Below, one piece after another: positions 1-10,006 of a stretch of 20,843 nucleotides of DNA. The notes under the pieces are model-generated. The model worked only from the letters and a program-made list of their open reading frames with translations, was not told where the DNA came from and searched no databases. Numbering within the stretch: position 1 is the first letter of the stretch; each line of letters starts with the position of its first letter. Made by a program: the position numbers and the translations under genes. Source of the stretch: a virus; the IMG/VR virus record IMGVR_UViG_3300023180_000497, positions 1 through 20,843 of that record; one strand, given 5' to 3'.

Positions 1-1806
1 CACGATCGTGATGAAAACATCGGCGAACTTCGTAAAACCCTTATCACCACCTCCGAAAAAGTTAGAGAATATGCTCTTAATTTCTTTAAAAAGGTTGTCA
101 AGAGCTCGGCTAACTCCTCGTGGATTTTTAATTGAATCAAAAAACACTTGAAACGCTCTAGTCACTCTGTTCATGTTGGATGTTATACGACCAGGAGCAA
201 AGAAGTCAGACATTGACTTAAGCATTCCCTTTACGCCCGGGAAGGATTTGACAAATGCTCTACCAATTCGAATTCCAGCGAGCTCAACTGTTCTTAATGA
301 GGCTTTAAGGTTTATCATGAGAGTTCTAAATTCTGAGGTTCTTCTTACACCCTTTTCTATTCCCCCTGTAAATGCTGCCCAGAAAGATTCATATTTAGTT
401 CCTTCACTAAATTGTTTTTCAATATTTTTAGAGAGTTCTTTAAGAACTTTCGTCTGTTCTATCTGGTTTGCCTGAGCTTTGTTGGCAGCTTTTTGTGCGT
501 CTGTTAGTTTCTTTTGTCGATTCCCCTTGCCGAACATCACAGCAGCTTCTTGAACACTCATCTTGAGATTAGCAGCAAATGCTTTTTGTTCGATCCTGCT
601 CATTCCTTCAAAAGACTTTCCAGTCTTTTTAAACTGCTCTCGAAGATATTCTTGACGCTCGGCGGCATTCATCGTCATCATCTTTCGAGAATCAATCATC
701 ATGCCGAACTGTCTTCGGAGCATTGCTGCAGATCTTGCAGCATTTTCAAAGTTATCAAAATGATCAACAATGCCCTGCAAGGTTTTCATCTCAATGCCCG
801 TTCTTCTCATCGTTGCAGAAAGGGCACCTAACTGTGCTACACTCATACCTCCGAAGTGTTCCATGCTCAAAGACATTTGAGTGATATCTCTTCCGATGCC
901 TTTCGAAGATAAATTAAACTGTTTACCTAGCTGAATCGACATATTGCCTATCTGGTGCAAATTCTTGTTGACATCTTCGCCGGCGGCGCTCATCTTTACA
1001 GCAAACTTAGCAGCTGTCTCTGCAGATAACCCCAACCCTTTCTGGTATTTGGTGAAGTCTCCTATGCCTTTTCCGATATCGACTATGAACGTTTCGAAAT
1101 AGGGACCCATGGATTTCGCTATTTCTAAAGTATCAGCAAGAGCTTTCGCCATTCCCTCCGGTCCGTAACCGAACACTCTTCCAAAACTAACCGCACTTGA
1201 TTTAGAATCATTAAAGCTTTTTCTTATGCTGTAAACAGCGTCTTTAGTTGCTGCTGCAGGGCCCTCAGTAAAGTCTCCCAACTCTTTTCTTAAGTTCTCA
1301 AGCTCCTTTCGAAAAGGTGAAATCCCTTGCTTGTTCGCCATGCTTATCATTCCACTCAATATTTGGAACGGAACCATTATGATTGCTTTACCTAGCTTGA
1401 ACAAGGATTTTACTACACCGAAGATTGCTTTCCCAAATCCCTTGATTATATTAGTACCTAATTTAAAACCTCTATTAAAACCTTTTAAAGCAGAAGTAAT
1501 AACAGCAAGTTTTGAAGCTTTTTTGTAGACTTTTTCAAGAACTTCTGATGTTTCTTCTGACTTTTCGTTAAGGCGATCCAAACCATCTCTGGCCTGATTA
1601 GCAGCATCTGTAAGTGCATTTTTAAATGATCCGGCTGACTTTTCTAAATTTTTGAGTCCATTGCAGTCAAGAGAGCTACACATCGAAGATGCTAGATCGG
1701 CCTGCTTTCCCAAAAGTTTTGAGTTGTTTTCTAAGAGTTTTTGGCGCTCTTTTAGTGCTTCATTGATCTGTAGTTGAACTTTGAGTTGATTGCCTAAATC
1801 TGCCAT
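1..1806 (-). CDS. Tail tape measure protein, N-terminal 602 residues (3' end off the left edge)
   Basis: An uninterrupted frame runs from an ATG at 1806 to the window edge, so only the first 602 residues are visible. Tape measure proteins fill the tail tube, set tail length and are ejected with the DNA. The evidence is position (directly after tube and tail-chaperone genes), length, and composition: a charged N-terminal region (roughly residues 1-110) rich in Lys, Glu, Asn and Ala, a hydrophobic stretch around 135-157 (IIMVPFQILSGMISM), then a long Ala/Gly/Lys-rich helical region with Met clusters. No enzymatic domain is seen in this part. The other ATG four bases upstream, at 1810, is in another frame and stops after 16 codons. 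The ribosome binding site is weak (GTGTGG just upstream), so translation may be coupled to the chaperone extension ending at 1880. Family assignment is by context and composition, not by a specific motif. Confidence 0.8.
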   Translation of the reverse strand, partial: MADLGNQLKVQLQINEALKERQKLLENNSKLLGKQADLASSMCSSLDCNGLKNLEKSAGSFKNALTDAANQARDGLDRLNEKSEETSEVLEKVYKKASKLAVITSALKGFNRGFKLGTNIIKGFGKAIFGVVKSLFKLGKAIIMVPFQILSGMISMANKQGISPFRKELENLRKELGDFTEGPAAATKDAVYSIRKSFNDSKSSAVSFGRVFGYGPEGMAKALADTLEIAKSMGPYFETFIVDIGKGIGDFTKYQKGLGLSAETAAKFAVKMSAAGEDVNKNLHQIGNMSIQLGKQFNLSSKGIGRDITQMSLSMEHFGGMSVAQLGALSATMRRTGIEMKTLQGIVDHFDNFENAARSAAMLRRQFGMMIDSRKMMTMNAAERQEYLREQFKKTGKSFEGMSRIEQKAFAANLKMSVQEAAVMFGKGNRQKKLTDAQKAANKAQANQIEQTKVLKELSKNIEKQFSEGTKYESFWAAFTGGIEKGVRRTSEFRTLMINLKASLRTVELAGIRIGRAFVKSFPGVKGMLKSMSDFFAPGRITSNMNRVTRAFQVFFDSIKNPRGVSRALDNLFKEIKSIFSNFFGGGDKGFTKFADVFITIV

Positions 1807-1879: not shown

Positions 1880-2134
1880 TTACGTAAATCTTCTTAGGCG
1901 GGCAGGTGCATCTGGCCTTAGGCCCATTAAGGCTCGTTGTTCAGGAGAATTTGCATGTGTTGCTTTGGTAGGAGCTTCTCCCTTCGAATCTTTGAACTCC
2001 TTCATGGTTCTTTCCAAGAACCATTGACGCTTCCAGACAGGTAAGTTGTAAGCATCATGATAAGTAAAACCGATATAATACATTAAAGTCCATATCTGGT
2101 CGAGAAAAATCTCCTTATCATTCGGTGTCAGGCC
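1880..2134 (-). CDS. Frameshifted C-terminal extension of the tail assembly chaperone (gp51-like)
   Basis: This frame has an ATG at 2083 that would give a 67-residue protein, but there is no Shine-Dalgarno sequence at a usable distance: the nearest, AAGGAG at 2111-2116, lies 27 bases away. The frame stays open upstream of that ATG through sensible sequence (GLTPNDKEIFLDQIWTL) to the T7 run at 2135-2141, and the first stop in this frame is a TAG just beyond it. The simplest reading is an 84-residue extension made by +1 or -2 frameshifting out of the preceding gene, giving a fused product of about 363 residues. The core YHDAYNLPVWKRQWFLER resembles, from memory, the small T4-like gp51/gp26-partner proteins. 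The position between tube and tape measure is where phages keep frameshifted tail chaperones (G/GT in lambda). An independent 67-residue protein is the alternative. Confidence 0.7.
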   Translation of the reverse strand, partial: GLTPNDKEIFLDQIWTLMYYIGFTYHDAYNLPVWKRQWFLERTMKEFKDSKGEAPTKATHANSPEQRALMGLRPDAPARLRRFT

Positions 2135-2972
2135 AAAAAAACGAAGCCCCTAAGGGCAAATTAACCTCCGTATGCTCATCACAAGATTCACACTGCATCC
2201 ATGATTTCATCTCAATCCCAGGTTCGTTAGAATCGATATATTTTCTAAGTGCAAGAGAATCTCTAGCGGGCATATTCCTAATAAAAGTTCCAATCTTTGA
2301 TTTGTCAGTTACACCGTCGACTGAGACTACAGAGAAATTAAGTCTAGACGTCACAAGATTATCTGTCTTGAGTCCTTGCTTCTTTTGTCTTTCTGAAATA
2401 GTGCTCATTTCCTGTTCGTCTCTTCCTGTAAGGAACTTGAAATGAACTTTCTTTTTTGTAACTGGGAGTGTAAATTCAAAAAGGTTGGCTCCCTCTGTAA
2501 TAGGACTTATTTCTAGTCTCTTAATAGGAAGGTCAGTCAACATAAATGTTTGCTTGTTTCCAGCGCCGCAATCCGGACAATCAACTTGAACAGTGTAGTC
2601 AGAACCATAGCCGGTAATTCTTAAAGCCGTCATTACTGCATTTCTGTCGCCGCTTATCATTGCATCTACGTCGACAGTTTTGTCAATCAGACAAGACTTA
2701 ATCAGTTCAGTTATAACTGTTCCTTTTTTGATCAATGCTCTAGATGTTAAAATATCTTCTTCTTTAGCAGTCATCGACTTTATCTCTAAAGTCTCTTTAC
2801 CGTGTAGACCAGTCTCTTGGTCATAGATCACTCCATTGGATGGAAGAGGAACAGCTTCAACTGGAACTTCATATCCAAAATCATCCTTCATTACATTCCG
2901 AATTTGAAAACCAGCCTGTTGTGCTTGGTTTGCACCGAATACTTCGTTTCCTTGTCTTTGTTCGTTCGACAC
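2118..2972 (-). CDS. Tail assembly chaperone / T4 gp26-like protein
   Basis: A 284-residue protein starting at GTG (2970-2972), with GAGGT five bases upstream. It resembles the T4 gp26-like family found across T4-like phages: an N-terminal PLPSNGVIY segment (42-50), the block IKSMTAKEEDILTSRAL (64-80), and GDRNAVMTALRITGYG (108-123). Two CxxC pairs (C132/C135 and C261/C264) could form one zinc ribbon joining distant parts of the chain. In T4, gp26 is annotated as a baseplate hub assembly protein. Here the location between tube and tape measure fits a G-type tail chaperone that binds the tape measure during assembly. The C-terminus ends GASFFWPDTE, and the T7 run coding F278-F279 is the likely frameshift point. 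The chaperone role is inferred from context; membership of the gp26-like family is the firmer claim. Confidence 0.75.
   Translation of the reverse strand: MSNEQRQGNEVFGANQAQQAGFQIRNVMKDDFGYEVPVEAVPLPSNGVIYDQETGLHGKETLEIKSMTAKEEDILTSRALIKKGTVITELIKSCLIDKTVDVDAMISGDRNAVMTALRITGYGSDYTVQVDCPDCGAGNKQTFMLTDLPIKRLEISPITEGANLFEFTLPVTKKKVHFKFLTGRDEQEMSTISERQKKQGLKTDNLVTSRLNFSVVSVDGVTDKSKIGTFIRNMPARDSLALRKYIDSNEPGIEMKSWMQCESCDEHTEVNLPLGASFFWPDTE
2135..2141 (-). promoter_or_regulatory. Candidate slippery site for +1/-2 programmed frameshift
   Basis: Seven consecutive T on the minus strand lie six codons before the chaperone stop and are read TCG TTT TTT TGG in the zero frame. A P-site Phe-tRNA can re-pair fully after slipping by +1 or -2 because every base is U, and both slips enter the open downstream frame beginning GGC CTG ACA. 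Overlap of the two frames is confined to the bases between a TAG upstream and the TGA at 2118-2120, so the slip must occur in this short stretch. RNA polymerase slippage on the homopolymer would give the same fusion. Confidence 0.6.
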
Positions 2973-3077: not shown

Positions 3078-3212
3078 CAGCTGGGCAAGCTGTTTATTTT
3101 GCTTTCTAAGACATATTTTTTTCTCTTATGATGAATTGTACAAAAAATTTTCAGTAATGTCACAGAATTAAATTGTGAGCGTCTTTACGATAAGATTGAC
3201 ATGTTTTTAAAC

Positions 3213-3241
3213 AAAAAAAAATCCCGCCTAGGCGGGATTTT
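3213..3241 (-). terminator. Rho-independent terminator after the tail tube gene
   Basis: A perfect 24-base palindrome (3218-3241) folds to a GC-rich stem, CCCG paired with CGGG, with flanking A-T pairs and a CCTAGG core. On the minus strand it is followed by a run of nine T. It lies about 34 bases after the tube stop codon, ending the neck/sheath/tube transcript. The tail on the plus strand is only four T, so it is mainly a minus-strand terminator. Confidence 0.9.
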
Positions 3242-3274
3242 CCAACTCTCAATTTATCAAATAAATTAAAAAGA

Positions 3275-3763
3275 TTAGTACTGAAGTACGCAGTTATCGA
3301 AACGAATTGTGAGAGAGATCTCAGTTGGATCGGATGCGCCGTAATCCAAGTCACCGAATGAAGCAGCTGTTAAGAAAGCTCCCTTGATATCCCAGAGCTC
3401 AACAACGGTACCTACTGGATCGAGAAGCTTGAGTTGACAATCTCTCTTGTAGAAATCTGCATATCCTGCTCGACCTGAAACTGATTCGAAATGAGTTCTT
3501 ACCCACTCCATAACCTGTTGTGCACCAGATGGCGCGATCGGGTCATGCAATGTAACTGACAGAGTTTCAAACTTTGTCTTTCCTGCGACGTATCGTGTGT
3601 GATTGATGAAAGGAACTTCTGTCTCCTCTGTTGTAATAGAAGGACGCGCTGCTGTCTTCATCAAGAATGAATCGATTCCCTCTATAGCAAAAACCCATCT
3701 GAACTTTCGTTTGGGTTCAAACTTATTTGGGAGCATGTCGGTAACTGATAGTGTCTCTGCCAT
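3275..3763 (-). CDS. Tail tube protein (gp19-like)
   Basis: A 162-residue protein, the size of the T4 gp19 tube subunit (163 residues). It stacks as hexamers to form the inner tail tube through which DNA passes. The sequence has the expected all-beta layout: NKFEPKRKFRWVFAIEGID near the N-terminus (13-31), a central segment with ETLSVTLHDPIAP (66-78), and a C-terminus with YGASDPTEISLTIRFDNC (141-158) typical of tube proteins. The start ATG has AAGGAG ten bases upstream. It follows the second of two sheath genes, as 19 follows 18 in T4, and is the last gene before a strong terminator. The assignment is by fold pattern, size and order. Confidence 0.92.
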   Translation of the reverse strand: MAETLSVTDMLPNKFEPKRKFRWVFAIEGIDSFLMKTAARPSITTEETEVPFINHTRYVAGKTKFETLSVTLHDPIAPSGAQQVMEWVRTHFESVSGRAGYADFYKRDCQLKLLDPVGTVVELWDIKGAFLTAASFGDLDYGASDPTEISLTIRFDNCVLQY

Positions 3764-3818: not shown

Positions 3819-6800
3819 TTAGATTTCAGCACCTGCATTCGTTACAACAAAGTCGAGAGAGATGAACTCAACAGATCTGGTTGGTTGCAAGTAAATCTTT
3901 CCTCTAATTGTATTGTTTTCAACGTCTGCCTGTGTTGTAGTTGTTGTATCGATCTGTACTCTAAATCTATCCAAACCTTGTTGTTGCTGTATTCTTCCCA
4001 ATATCGGAGTCACAGCATTGCTGAACTTAGCTAATGTTGATTCTCTGTTCGGCTCGAAGAGAAGACTATTAGCAATATTTTTAACTTGACGTCTAACGTC
4101 AATCAAGAGTCTTCTCACGTTAACTCTATCCAGCGCGCTTTGTCCTGCCAACATTGTCTTTTGTCCCCAGATAACTACGCCCGGAGTTGACGGGAAAGAA
4201 GTAATTGGGTTGATGTCAGAATCGTATAAATTGTCCAAGTTAGATCTGTTGAGTTTAACCTGTTCTTCAATCACTGTTGAAAGTGAACCACGATTAAAAC
4301 CAGCCGGTGCGTACCAGGGATGTGCTACTGAGTCGTTGAAAGCAAACGCTCCAAGAACTGCAACAGATGGGGGACATTGTACATTCGTTAATGTCGCCCT
4401 GTCTTGAATCACAACATCTGGGAAGTAAGCAGCTGCAAAAGAAGTATCGAAGTTTCTAGATGCATGACGATCAACTGTGTTCCTAACATTAATGATCGAA
4501 TCAGATCCAGTTACTGCATTGTTCAGCGTATCTCTTTCCTCAATGTCCATGATATACAACGCATCGAATCTTCTTTCTACTGATTCAATCGCAAAATCTG
4601 TAACAGATTCATGTCTAACACCGGGGATTGCCAAAAGCTGGATGTCCACATCGGACTTCTCTTCCATGACTCGGATTGCTTTTCTGTATCCAGCAACTGT
4701 AGGACCGGATACACCGCCCTGATTTGCCGCGTCATCCATTTCTCTTCTCAAAGCTGCATCATTGAACTTTGCCTTGTCTTCGTCAAAGATATTGACGCCA
4801 TCGAAGCCTCCCTGAAGGGGGAACGTAAACTTAAGGTACCTTCTAGTCGGAAGATGTGCAAAGTCTGTAGAGGGATTCAAAAATCTTGTTTTTGTTGATG
4901 CAGTTCCATCAATATCTGTCATAGATCCAAGAACACCGTTTCGCCTGTATGCTGCGACAGCCCACTGTTTGTCGTCTGGGCGATCGCCAGATCCTGTTAT
5001 GACCTGGACTCTTTCAAGAGTAAAAATGTTATTATTGAATCTATCAGCGTCAAGGATTGACCCTCCGACGTCGGGTGTTCCTTCGTTTCCTCCAACAACT
5101 GGTGACTGCCAATCTGTGTGGAAGTCAGGCATGTAACGAACAAAACTTCTGATTGATTCGTTAAGTTTCTGATGTTTGTTGGGCTCTGTTAATGAATCTT
5201 TCTGTTCGAACTGTACACCCCATGTAAGTTTAGCATCCGCAACTTTCTTGGGTGAAGATCCCTTCGCAACTGTCTCTCTAAATGGGACAGGAGGCTGAAC
5301 GATTCTTCGAACGTCAACCGTCTGAGGTCCGGCAGTGTAAGAACCCCCTCGGGTATTCCAATCAGTTCCTGAAAGAATTGAGTTGGATCCTCCAGACGCT
5401 GAGCCTGAAGTGACTAGGTGATTAAGCCCTCTAAAACCTACAGGAAGTGCTGTATCGTTAAGAGCATTGTCCCTCAGATCACTTGAAAGCTCAATCCTTA
5501 TGTAATTTGATACATTTGGATAAGATCCATCAATGACCAACTTTTGACTTCCGGCGGATTTGTCAAAATCGTAGTATGTATGTGTATCACCGATTCTTCT
5601 TGCAACGAAATTATCACTTGATGGATTGAGATCAAGTCCGGCAAATCTTTCTAGAACAACTGGCTCTGAATCGCTATCAGCGAAATACCTAACTGCGAGG
5701 TCGAAGGTGCCGTAAGGATTATTTTCGTTAGTAGATGCTTGGATGTTTTCAATTGTAATCTTAAAAGCATCTGATCCGGCTCTGCCGTCGTCTAAGGCGT
5801 GTATCTTAAAGATGTTCTTGTTAACACCACCAAATTTTTGTGATATCACAAAAGGTGAGTATGCAGTTCTAAATCGATCCTCAAAGTTTTCAAAGCTAGG
5901 AACTCCTACTTGTGTTGATGTAGTAGATGATCCACTGTTTCTATTAGCTGATCCTGATAAGAGAAATGCTGCTTCAACTGACCCAGTGTATCCGGCGACG
6001 AGTGTGTCGTCATGTCCTGTTACACCTGATGCCGTTATGACACATTGTGTCTGATAAATATCGTATGAGCTATAAAGGTAATGCCCCATCTCTTCGATAC
6101 GTGTAGCATCTGTATTAAAAACCTTTGCGAAATAATTCGGTGCCTGTGGATCAAACGATGCTGTTATCACGTTTGTAGATGTGTCTGATTCTACATGACC
6201 GTTCAACATTAAAGAAAATTCTTGTTTAGAAGATGCTGTTTCAACGTCACCAAACGTTGATCCACCTGGAGTTGTTGCATTTGGAATGTTTTTGGTGCCC
6301 GCTACAATTGACCCGAGGGTCGCAAGAACGCCGCTGGGCGTCATTATAATTCCTCTTATAAGAGGATGAGCGTCGTCAGTCTGAATTCCTGCATCTTGAA
6401 GAAAGTTACTTCCGTTTGACTCAGAGTGGAAAGCACCTAAAAAGTAAGTTCTACCCAAGGAACCTCCGGAGGTTGCGTAAGGATTTGCTCCGACGTTTCC
6501 ATTACCCTGGACTTGCTCAGACCCTACGACGAACCCAGCATTCGTAACTTTACCAGAATTATCTCCTGACGAAGTTCTTTTCTTTGCGTCTCCAACACCA
6601 AGAAGTCTAACATATGTTCCTGCATTTGCGTTATTCAACCACTCACGCATAGCAAGAGGACCAAACTTTTCTCCGTCTGAGTTTCCGAATTTTGAAATGA
6701 AATCCTGAAACGTCGCGACCGTAATAGGCACGAAAGCAGGACCTCGAACTGCTGTTCCTATAACACCAGCTGGAACACCGGTAGGTTGAATTGCAGTCGG

Positions 6801-6860
6801 GCCACTTAAGTCTATTTCCCTAGTGCTTACGCCCGGACTCTTGAATGTTAGTTGTGTCAT
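3819..6860 (-). CDS. Tail sheath protein, copy A (gp18-like, 1013 residues)
   Basis: This is a contractile tail sheath subunit. The N-terminus (FKSPGVSTREIDLSG, then PAGVIGTAVRGPAFVP at 30-45, then KFGPLAMREWL) is the conserved start of phage sheaths. The C-terminal domain has WYAPAGFNRG, INPITSFPSTPGVVIWGQKTM and ALDRVNVRRLL (about 908-918), followed by the final strand VEFISLDFVVTNAG; these regions make the linked mesh of the contracting sheath. It is well above the 659 residues of T4 gp18, the extra length being in the middle (roughly 95-600), which probably forms outward-facing domains. AGGAG lies eight bases before the ATG. It is colinear along its whole length with the 1034-residue gene just upstream, so the two arose by duplication. 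Which copy makes the bulk of the sheath cannot be told. Confidence 0.93.
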   Translation of the reverse strand: MTQLTFKSPGVSTREIDLSGPTAIQPTGVPAGVIGTAVRGPAFVPITVATFQDFISKFGNSDGEKFGPLAMREWLNNANAGTYVRLLGVGDAKKRTSSGDNSGKVTNAGFVVGSEQVQGNGNVGANPYATSGGSLGRTYFLGAFHSESNGSNFLQDAGIQTDDAHPLIRGIIMTPSGVLATLGSIVAGTKNIPNATTPGGSTFGDVETASSKQEFSLMLNGHVESDTSTNVITASFDPQAPNYFAKVFNTDATRIEEMGHYLYSSYDIYQTQCVITASGVTGHDDTLVAGYTGSVEAAFLLSGSANRNSGSSTTSTQVGVPSFENFEDRFRTAYSPFVISQKFGGVNKNIFKIHALDDGRAGSDAFKITIENIQASTNENNPYGTFDLAVRYFADSDSEPVVLERFAGLDLNPSSDNFVARRIGDTHTYYDFDKSAGSQKLVIDGSYPNVSNYIRIELSSDLRDNALNDTALPVGFRGLNHLVTSGSASGGSNSILSGTDWNTRGGSYTAGPQTVDVRRIVQPPVPFRETVAKGSSPKKVADAKLTWGVQFEQKDSLTEPNKHQKLNESIRSFVRYMPDFHTDWQSPVVGGNEGTPDVGGSILDADRFNNNIFTLERVQVITGSGDRPDDKQWAVAAYRRNGVLGSMTDIDGTASTKTRFLNPSTDFAHLPTRRYLKFTFPLQGGFDGVNIFDEDKAKFNDAALRREMDDAANQGGVSGPTVAGYRKAIRVMEEKSDVDIQLLAIPGVRHESVTDFAIESVERRFDALYIMDIEERDTLNNAVTGSDSIINVRNTVDRHASRNFDTSFAAAYFPDVVIQDRATLTNVQCPPSVAVLGAFAFNDSVAHPWYAPAGFNRGSLSTVIEEQVKLNRSNLDNLYDSDINPITSFPSTPGVVIWGQKTMLAGQSALDRVNVRRLLIDVRRQVKNIANSLLFEPNRESTLAKFSNAVTPILGRIQQQQGLDRFRVQIDTTTTTQADVENNTIRGKIYLQPTRSVEFISLDFVVTNAGAEI

Positions 6861-6901: not shown

Positions 6902-9900
6902 TTACTCGAAGGTTACGCCGCTGTTTGTTATGACAAAGTCGATTGAAATAAATTCTACCGCTCTCGTTGGAACAACAACGATTCTACCATTCATTCTATT
7001 TTGTTCTGCATCTTGTGCTGTGTTATTCGTGCTATCGCAAATAACTTTAAATTGCTCTATTCCTGCCTGTAACTGAATTAACGCAAGAAGAGGTGTTACT
7101 TGATTCACAAATCTTGAGCGAGTTGCTGCGTTATTAGGCTCAAACAAGAATCTATCAGCCGCACTTGACACCTGACGCTTGATCTCCAACATGAGACGTC
7201 TTACGTTCACTCTATCTAGAGCAGATTTTGCAAACTGGAGCGTCTTCTGGCCGAAAATCACGAAACCATTGTTCGGGAAAACGGCTATCGGATTGATTCT
7301 TGCGTCATACAAAGTGTCTCTGTCTGCAGACGTCAATCTAGACTCAACATTAGAGACAAAGTCCATTCCTCCTCTGTTGAAACCTGCCGGTGCATACCAA
7401 GGAAATGATACTTTATCGTTGAAAGCAAGAGTTCCCATAGCTGCCACAGACGACGGAACTTTAACAACTCTGTTGTTAACTGGATCTTCTATGTGTACAT
7501 CCGGGAAGTACGTTGCACCGTAATTATTGTCAATTGCTCTACTTTCAAACTGTTCAGAAGTTTCTCTAACATCAACCTTCGCTGTACTGTCATCGTAAAG
7601 TCTATTTCCGGCTTCGTCGTACTTCAATGAATCTAAGAGATAAATGGCTTTTGAATAATCTCTGACTTTTTCCAGTGCATGGTCTGTTACGAAAGTCTCT
7701 CTAACACCTGGGATTGCAAGTATGTTGATATTTGAGGACATTGGATCAGTCATGATATCAACAGCACTTCGAAGAGTGGCATTAGAATTGCTCTTTCTTC
7801 CGAAACCACCTTGATTTTTATTTCCCACTAAAGGCATCCCAGTCGGTCCTGTTGATTCCTGAGATAGACCTCCTGTATCCGAAGAAAATGCTCTGTCACG
7901 GAGAAGATAGAGGTCCTTGTCAAGGATGTTAAGACCATCGAAGCCCCCGTGGAAAACATTAGTAAACTTAGCGTATGTTGTGAATCTATTGAACAGGACT
8001 GCATTCTTGTGAATCAAAGAAGCTAGCGTAAATCTGTTGCTAACTGTGCCATCCGAAACTGTGTATGTATTTCTATCAGGCGCTCCGTTTCGGATGTAAG
8101 CAGCTTCAAGCATGTGTTCGCTCGAAGAACCTGTGAATGCTGTGTCCAAATCGCTGAGCGTGTTGTTCGAAGTTGCATTGTAAAAAGCTACTCTTGCAAG
8201 TGTAAACTTATTAGAATTGAACTCATCTGCACCCGATCCTGTCACTAAGCTGTCAAGCTTTTCGATTCCTTGAAATTTCGTGTAAGATCTTACCAGTTCA
8301 TTTACTGTGTTACCCACGTTGGAATTTAACACTGGGTTGGTAACAGCATCAGATGTGGGTATTCTATGAACGTTAACACCCCAGTAGAATCTTCCGTCCA
8401 CTCTCTCATTTGTGCCGGGTTGCCCTGGCCAAGTCGCTGAGGCATTTCCTTCACCTCGAGTGACTTTAAATCTGTGTGGAAGAGGAGGTACAATTGCGTT
8501 AGCGAGATCCGCCGCTCCTGCGGAGGTGTGCAGACGATCCGTCCCGGCGTTTCCTATCGGCTTTCCGTATGTACCGGTAAGAGCTGTGAGTGAATCTGTG
8601 AGTGAATCTGTTGTCTTTATGACAGGAATCCCCTTAAATCCAAAAGGAAGTGCGTCTCTAGGAACCTCACCACTTTCAACTTGTGAATTCATCTGAATTC
8701 TTATTCTTGAAGAGATGTTCGGATATTTTCCTGAAATAACAAGACGACGTTCAGCAGGATCTTCTTGATCAAAATCGTATCTTACTTTTTTGTCACCAAT
8801 AACTTTGGCGACATATCTTTCGCTTCTTGGATTGAGGTCACATTCAGAATACCTCTCAATTATCTGTGTGGATGTATCCTTGTCATCAAAAGCTCGAAGC
8901 TGGACTTCAAAAGTTCCAAATGGATTGTTTGGATCTGTAGACGCTCTCAAATTCGCTATCGATATCTTAAATTTATCGTTAGCATACGCTCCGTCTGTAA
9001 TGGTCTCGAAGTGAAAGAGATCGTATTCCTTCTTTCCGTAAGGCTGTGATATGAAATTAGAAGTTTTCGGTGTTGTGTATCTCGTATCATATCTTCCGTA
9101 AACGTGCTGAGCGTTAAATCCACTGGCTAAGGTTGACAAAGAACCCGATGCTAATCCAACTGTATCAACGCCGGCGGACGCTTTAATAGGAGCAAGTTCA
9201 TGTTCGACTGCATAGTCAAGATAAAGCAAATGTTTTGTTTCCTGAAACTTAAGAGGATCTGTGTTCAAAACTCTGCTGATGTAATGACCGTCTTTTGGAT
9301 CAAGTGAAGCTGTGAGAATTCTAATCCCTGGATTTCCATCGTCGTTAGAAAATGATGCTCCAGAAGCACTTACCACCATTTTAAAATATTTGGTCTCAGA
9401 AAGCTGACTTCCGATTTTACCTACTTCAGCTCCAGCTACTTTGGCATCTGTTGTCGTGTACTGTTGATCATGATCAAGTAATTGGATTGTTGCATCTGTT
9501 GTCGTAAAAATCACGCCTCGAACGAGTTGAACATCGGCGTCTCCAGTACTTTGATTGTCTGTAAAGACTGAATATGCAGCTGCTTCATGTGTGACAGGTT
9601 CATGCTCAGCTGTTAAAAAGAAAACATCACCCTTAGAAGAATTGTTGGCAGTTACTTCTGATCCTGAGATTCTGAATCCTGCATTTTTCACGTAGCCATA
9701 TTGTTCTGTATTTCCAATGTCTGCGATAGACTCATTGGCGCCGGCGCCTAGGACTCTCATATAAGTCAATGATGTTCGATGCTTTAAAAATTCTCTTACA
9801 GCATACGGACCAAATCTATCTGGGTGTAGTGTTCCAAATCTAGATTCGAAATCTGCGAACGATCCTACAGTTACGGGGACAAATGCAGGACCGAATTCTG

Positions 9901-10006
9901 CAGTGCCAATTACACCTGCAGGGGTTCCGACAGGCGTTATTTGTCTCGACGAGAGATCTATCTCCTGTTCAAAAAAACCGGGTGATCTAAATGTTTGCTC
10001 AGCCAT
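6902..10006 (-). CDS. Tail sheath protein, copy B (gp18-like, 1034 residues)
   Basis: A second full-length sheath protein immediately upstream of copy A, separated by about 41 bases with its own AGGAG before each start. The N-terminus (FRSPGFFEQEIDLSS, PAGVIGTAEFGPAFVP at 29-44, RFGPYAVREFL) and C-terminus (WYAPAGFNRGG, INPIAVFPNNGFVIFGQKTL, ALDRVNVRRLM near 929-939, VEFISIDFVITNSG) carry all the conserved sheath elements, so it is not a decayed copy. The middle also aligns with copy A, for example DPNNPFGTFEVQLRAF against ENNPYGTFDLAVRYF, but with many changes and indels, including a 12-base tandem repeat coding TDSL twice. The divergence points to an old duplication kept by selection, perhaps for a mixed or layered sheath, a distinct collar or baseplate-proximal ring, or alternative outer surfaces. 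Confidence 0.92.
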   Translation of the reverse strand: MAEQTFRSPGFFEQEIDLSSRQITPVGTPAGVIGTAEFGPAFVPVTVGSFADFESRFGTLHPDRFGPYAVREFLKHRTSLTYMRVLGAGANESIADIGNTEQYGYVKNAGFRISGSEVTANNSSKGDVFFLTAEHEPVTHEAAAYSVFTDNQSTGDADVQLVRGVIFTTTDATIQLLDHDQQYTTTDAKVAGAEVGKIGSQLSETKYFKMVVSASGASFSNDDGNPGIRILTASLDPKDGHYISRVLNTDPLKFQETKHLLYLDYAVEHELAPIKASAGVDTVGLASGSLSTLASGFNAQHVYGRYDTRYTTPKTSNFISQPYGKKEYDLFHFETITDGAYANDKFKISIANLRASTDPNNPFGTFEVQLRAFDDKDTSTQIIERYSECDLNPRSERYVAKVIGDKKVRYDFDQEDPAERRLVISGKYPNISSRIRIQMNSQVESGEVPRDALPFGFKGIPVIKTTDSLTDSLTALTGTYGKPIGNAGTDRLHTSAGAADLANAIVPPLPHRFKVTRGEGNASATWPGQPGTNERVDGRFYWGVNVHRIPTSDAVTNPVLNSNVGNTVNELVRSYTKFQGIEKLDSLVTGSGADEFNSNKFTLARVAFYNATSNNTLSDLDTAFTGSSSEHMLEAAYIRNGAPDRNTYTVSDGTVSNRFTLASLIHKNAVLFNRFTTYAKFTNVFHGGFDGLNILDKDLYLLRDRAFSSDTGGLSQESTGPTGMPLVGNKNQGGFGRKSNSNATLRSAVDIMTDPMSSNINILAIPGVRETFVTDHALEKVRDYSKAIYLLDSLKYDEAGNRLYDDSTAKVDVRETSEQFESRAIDNNYGATYFPDVHIEDPVNNRVVKVPSSVAAMGTLAFNDKVSFPWYAPAGFNRGGMDFVSNVESRLTSADRDTLYDARINPIAVFPNNGFVIFGQKTLQFAKSALDRVNVRRLMLEIKRQVSSAADRFLFEPNNAATRSRFVNQVTPLLALIQLQAGIEQFKVICDSTNNTAQDAEQNRMNGRIVVVPTRAVEFISIDFVITNSGVTFE
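8585..8608. repeat. 12-base perfect tandem duplication inside sheath copy B
   Basis: The plus-strand unit TGTGAGTGAATC occurs twice in a row, adding one copy of the four-residue unit TDSL within the protein (TDSLTDSLTAL). It keeps the frame and lies in the variable middle domain, where the two sheath copies differ most. It probably arose by replication slippage. Confidence 0.8.

Follow-up and report, generated by a model that had tools for sequence, protein, structure and literature searches.

Two overlapping reading frames

This locus raises the question of how two overlapping reading frames, the first of them a gp26-like gene, are turned into protein. It lies in a window of 20,843 nt, the whole stretch of DNA that was analyzed (positions 1 to 20,843 of IMG/VR record IMGVR_UViG_3300023180_000497), and comprises the following elements.

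3275..3763, minus strand: tail tube protein (gp19-like), upstream of gp26, matching phrog_4542 (E 8.3e-33)
2118..2972, minus strand: gp26-like gene, 284 aa, the short frame-0 product and presumed G-type chaperone
2133..2141, minus strand: predicted +1 slip site TTT TTT TGG, with P-site UUU at 2138-2136, A-site UGG at 2135-2133, and T2135 as the skipped base
2118..2120, minus strand: frame-0 stop TGA, 6 codons past the P-site codon (4 to 7 across all +1 loci)
1880..2134, minus strand: +1-frame extension, presumed T domain, 84 aa (GLTPNDKEIFLDQIW...RRFT), with third-position substitution bias
2081..2083, minus strand: first ATG of the extension frame, with 17 conserved codons upstream and no Shine-Dalgarno (SD) sequence at a working distance
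1..1806, minus strand: long open reading frame (ORF) directly after the extension, 602+ aa and running off the window, placed at the tape-measure position by its position only

The gp26-like gene starts at GTG 2972, preceded on the minus strand by GAGGT. Its product matched the Pfam family T4_baseplate (PF12322; E 5.3e-15; 56.1 bits, above the curated cut-off of 24.5) and the PHROGs baseplate hub family phrog_150 (E 7.6e-20). The 3′ end of the frame reads ...GCT TCG TTT TTT TGG CCT GAC ACC GAA TGA, and the protein ends FFWPDTE-stop. The T7 run occupies 2141-2135 of the minus strand, and the same T7 was found in two more IMG/VR contigs with an identical extension. TTTTTTTGGCC occurs once in the window, compared with 0.01 copies expected from shuffles.

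The extension frame, which carries GLTPNDKEIFLDQIWTLMYYIGFTYHDAYNLPVWKRQWFLER..., is open from 2149, just past TAG 2152-2150, to TAA 1882-1880. The initial annotation had noted that this frame lacks a ribosome binding site near ATG 2083 and is open back to the T7, and the sequence bears out both points. A perfect AAGGAG is present at 2116-2111 (minus strand), inside the extension just past the gp26 stop; it lies 27 nt from ATG 2083, and no usual in-frame start codon stands at a fitting distance downstream of it. The extension had no Pfam or PHROGs match and, as sole query, found no relative among annotated phages.

Gene order at the locus runs from sheath through tube, gp26, and extension to the long ORF in the tape-measure position. 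By position, gp26 and the extension thus lie between the tail tube and tape-measure genes, as is annotated in the immuto phages, SP-15, and LIS04. The long ORF matched no Pfam or PHROGs family in the window, and an annotated tape measure sits at its place in the immuto and LIS04 phages. Two tandem tail sheath genes are present at 3819-6860 and 6902-10006 (minus strand; 1,013 and 1,034 aa; 35% mutual identity), and their similarity to the sheath family is mostly in the last 300 residues, leaving each with a long N-terminal part. A strong inverted repeat of terminator type, AATCCCGCCTAGGCGGGATT between runs of A and T, lies at 3210-3245, between the tube gene and gp26.

Judged from sequence comparison, the two frames very probably encode a T4-like phage's pair of tail assembly chaperones, made via programmed +1 ribosomal frameshifting. 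Most ribosomes would end gp26 at TGA, giving the short protein (G). Some would pause while peptidyl-tRNA-Phe sits on UUU and UGG occupies the A site; the tRNA would then slip one base forward onto UUU, and GGC would be read next, giving a long protein (GT) of 363 aa.

Relatives with the +1 layout

IMG/VR was scanned with the gp26 protein, which gave 80 loci, and with the extension, which gave six more; isolates were searched by tblastn, and every gp26 3′ end was read. The +1 arrangement was found in 87 non-redundant loci, at identities down to about 22%, and the extension was in the +1 frame in all of them. The P-site codon was UUU or CUU in 87 of 87, with UGG next in nearly all. Among the loci tallied by site sequence, TTT TTT TGG CCT accounted for 58 and TTT CTT TGG CCT for 10, the remainder being single variants. 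Where the P-site codon encodes Phe it was TTT in 77/77 cases, though 32% of the Phe codons in those genes are TTC; the naive probability of this is 1e-13, a figure that ignores, and is inflated by, shared ancestry. Conservation of the site, of the frame relation, and of the lack of a ribosome binding site, by which the initial annotation had proposed to judge the frameshift, extended across these 87 relatives, far beyond chance.

Isolates with this layout include Microcystis phage Mel-JY01, the Flavobacterium immuto phages, Rhodothermus RM378, Bacillus SP-15, Listeria LIS04, Streptococcus GXN1, and Streptomyces BRock and LuckySocke. It was also present in seven contigs binned into MAGs (Flavobacteriales and other bacteria), one of which reads TTT TTT TTC (L229). 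The +1-group records that were checked either leave the extension unannotated or list it as a small ORF of its own. Metagenomic contigs may contain errors, and there was one odd case: contig L057 of the +1 clade (3440-3500) reads TTC TTC TGG, its extension is in the -1 frame, and a slip at A_AAU_UUC is possible; this may be either an assembly error or a recent, real switch of direction.

A sister group with a -1 heptamer

Homologous parts would be joined at the same place by the canonical heptamer U_UUU_UUY in a second group of 67 non-redundant loci. A gp26 frame ending NNT TTT TTY with a -1-frame extension was found in S-PM2, P-SSM2, HTVC008M, KVP40, EniLVp02, and Atu_ph07, as well as in PA5oct, RaK2, Munch, XacN1, RAS14, and many marine contigs. 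The -1 layout spans cyanophages, a pelagiphage, KVP40, Aeh1, and jumbo phages. In the cyanophages and KVP40, gp26 and a short gp51 are the same two parts in the same order as in the window, and the window extension is homologous to their small "gp51" ORF; they are annotated as two genes and carry the -1 heptamer U_UUU_UUC, in many cases accompanied by a 3′ hairpin, whereas the window has the +1 arrangement. The canonical -1 pattern X_XXY_YYZ is present in this sister group and absent from the window, where the extension is in the +1 frame. In profile comparisons, +1 and -1 fusions were collinear through the junction (E 3e-35), and the -1 extension matched the +1 extension (prob 97.2). Since other phages of the T4 superfamily appear to slip by the ordinary -1 at the same place, the +1 slip would be typical of only part of the family.

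The codon before TTT ended in a wobble T in 67/67 loci (AGT, AAT, TCT, GCT, GAT, CAT, or CGT), and TTC followed in 64 of the 67, compared with 19% TTC in the gene body. Among 20 representatives, partly related to each other, 3′ structure was strong (mean z -2.76; control stretch, -0.57), and 65% of sites vs 26% had SD-like sequence upstream. Hairpins of unrelated sequence stood at about the same place in S-PM2, the P-SSM2 group, Atu_ph07, PA5oct, and KVP40; covariation in the P-SSM2-type hairpin was too limited to count. LR756511 has T_TTT_TTC too. Contig L092, an apparent exception, was rejected as such, holding T_TTT_TTC with an open -1 frame.

Selection ahead of the first ATG

The extension might instead be a separate small gene, translated by re-initiation or coupling past the gp26 stop. 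The records of cyanophages and Mel-JY01 annotate gp51 as a gene of its own, and in 61/67 -1 loci a start codon falls within the first 12 extension codons, in most cases as an ATG right past the stop; in -1-group members with an ATG near the stop, re-initiation could be an additional route. Against this, in the -1 frame of Aeh1, PA5oct, RAS14, and XacN1 no ATG stands near the stop, and the slip heptamer is kept at silent positions. In the +1 group, 55/87 loci lack an ATG in the first 20 extension codons, and 67/87 lack any ATG, GTG, or TTG in the first 12. Homologs whose second gene has a strong ribosome binding site and start of its own, which the initial annotation had set against its reading, did not turn up in the +1 group: a start codon with a 5-nt SD was found in the first 20 extension codons of 0/87 +1 loci.

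Substitutions speak against a separate gene as well. We examined 28 independent pairs, picked by gp26 identity, at extension codons 8-17, which lie past the frame-0 stop and before the usual first ATG. Codon changes were synonymous in 89 cases and non-synonymous in 55, and the third position accounted for 125 of 214 base differences (58%). By this measure purifying selection acts on the residues ahead of the first ATG, in agreement with the earlier claim that these codons read as real protein, and a separately started gene is an unlikely explanation. The locus thus has what defines G/GT systems, two overlapping frames that, on this evidence, would be joined by a programmed slip into a short and a long product.

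Direction of the slip

The initial annotation had allowed a slip of +1 or -2 on TTT TTT TGG. A -2 ribosomal slip on the T-run, as in Mu, is possible on T7 and reaches the same frame in 69 loci. Six loci, however, have UCU, UGU, or ACU at the -2 position but allow cognate +1 re-pairing, and the conserved UGG in the A site suits a ribosome that stalls and slips forward. The +1 half of that claim thus stood and, given the site variants, the -2 half did not, at least as a shared mechanism; we consider -2 slipping very unlikely. T-runs about T7 long can slip in bacteria, and RNA polymerase slippage on the run would give a mixed mRNA pool. The same frame relation occurs without a long run, however, in ten TTTCTTT sites and at TTC TTT CGT, CTG TTT CGC, and AAC TTT CTA, which leaves polymerase slippage less probable still. 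A T7 that is a sequencing error in what is really one fused frame, which a T6 would restore, is scarcely credible and is refuted as a general explanation by isolates and metagenomes of many laboratories, in which the frame breaks at one and the same codon, run-less sites included.

We infer that the shared mechanism is +1 ribosomal frameshifting, rather than -2 or polymerase slippage, because the six variants forbid -2 re-pairing and the ten CUU sites break the T-run. Those ten loci have CUU_U, which would allow a prfB-like forward slip, and +1 re-pairing at the P-site codon is possible in all loci but one. The LIS04 site, TTT TTT AGT, allows only poor +1 re-pairing at its second codon and counts against a +1 reading. 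Common to the +1 sites is a P-site YUU followed by U or C, with a conserved UGG in the A site in nearly all; UGG may be decoded slowly there and so contribute to the slip. Stimulators at the +1 sites were weak, with a 3′ structure z of about -0.6 and no upstream SD enrichment.

T4 gp26 and gp51

The initial annotation had taken the locus for a gp26-like gene joined to a gp51-like extension. The joined parts held up, with the correction that only the last ~50 residues of T4 gp51 match the extension. T4 gp26 and gp51 are indeed separate genes, as had been stated, but profile comparison makes them paralogs (prob 99.35) and not the two halves of a fusion. PF12322 matches both T4 gp26 (215 bits) and gp51 (178 bits). 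The -1 fusion profile matched T4 gp51 collinearly to the C-terminus (prob 99.05) and T4 gp26 up to the FF junction, where the alignment stops (prob 99.5); the +1 profile matched gp51 directly only weakly (68.7). On these comparisons T4 gp26 is the apparent counterpart of the short product and gp51 that of the full-length fusion, homologous to it through the C-terminus. In T4 the two lie on opposite strands with no frameshift, in contrast to the joined frames of the window. RB43 has gp51 and gp26 in tandem, overlapping, and on one strand (L221, 1501-2794).

Copy numbers follow the same division. Two PF12322 genes were found in T4, RB43, Aeromonas 31, and phiP4-3 and one in every other phage matched; two +1 phages fell below the PF12322 search threshold and had one gene each by tblastn. 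Phages with a slip site thus have one PF12322-type gene and T4-likes two. In a tree, the gp26 and gp51 of T4-likes formed sister clades (100/97), each supported, nested in a set with KVP40, Aeh1, and EniLVp02, all of which have the -1 layout (98/91). Slip direction changed at least twice on this unrooted tree. Taken together, the data suggest that T4 resolved an ancestral frameshift by gene duplication while its relatives still frameshift.

We think it likely that the whole T4 superfamily has gp26/gp51 as its G/GT tail chaperone, the two products being obtained in three interchangeable ways at one homologous site (the -1 slip, the +1 slip, and gene duplication in T4), and that the role of gp51 is that of the GT form. 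In relatives both products would come from a -1 slip at these same codons; in T4 they would come from duplication, with gp26 as G and gp51 as GT. The T4 literature lists gp26 and gp51 as hub assembly chaperones and describes gp51 as essential, of unknown function, and absent from the particle (PMC3004832); an essential T4 protein would gain a testable role. It has been reported that gp51 is missing only in Aeh1 and that cyanophage gp51 has only about 20% of the usual length, the short form being left unexplained (Sullivan et al., PMC3037559). The three-way reading would account both for a cyanophage gp51 one fifth as long as that of T4 and for the apparent absence in Aeh1. Aeh1 was checked as a test of this idea and has GAT TTT TTC GAC TGA followed by a -1-frame extension, RFFRLTLVNDSVYDLFNVNYEMHKEGWTIEELETTTPFERAIY..., with no early ATG. 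A gene pair found in very many marine phages would have its annotation corrected, and the family would offer a natural series in which slip direction changes at one site.

Comparison with known systems

A review calls the G-T frameshift conserved in long-tailed phages "except T4" (PMC5009743); if the three-way reading is true, this supposed exception disappears. No earlier report of a frameshift in the gp26 family was found in searches of an open-access library. Gene position, the logic of two products, and the T4 record of gp26 and gp51 all point to a tail chaperone, and gp26 with its extension most likely serves the T4 superfamily as its G/GT tail assembly chaperone. The initial annotation's view of the T4-like pair as a G/GT-type system with a less common slip direction gains support from the site, the frame relation, coding upstream of the ATG, the missing ribosome binding site, and homology to the gp51 C-terminus. 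If lambda is a guide, G in large and GT in small numbers would cover the tape measure, recruit tube subunits, and then depart.

As here, lambda G/GT and its relatives in HK97, P2, and Mu have two overlapping frames between the tube and tape-measure genes; the slip site is close to where the first frame ends, and the short and long products share their N-terminus. They slip -1 or -2, whereas the clade of the window would slip +1, and the gp26-like first domain is larger and has C..C motifs; the likeness is one of layout, with no sequence relation found. Searches of gp26 and gp51 against PDB chains by sequence gave nothing beyond chance level. We modeled gp26 with AlphaFold2 (pLDDT 88.7) and folded a T4-like gp51 as well. 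The top VIA-align row for the gp26 model was the tail assembly chaperone HK97 gp13 (2ob9), at a Z of 4.7 that ties with 5ir0 and is below the level that means much; the match covers 93/104 residues at an rmsd of 3.9 (Foldseek E 4.1) and is suggestive only. The gp51 model had no good fold match among PDB chains.

At prfB (CUU_UGA) and other +1 sites, as proposed here, the P-site tRNA slips forward from YUU to UUU or UUC at a slow next codon. The prfB site has a stop codon in the A site, whereas the window clade has the sense codon UGG and no upstream SD enrichment. The tail chaperone of HSTV-2, an archaeal myovirus, is also thought to use +1 (PMC5009743), a likeness in direction to the window that we draw from its description.
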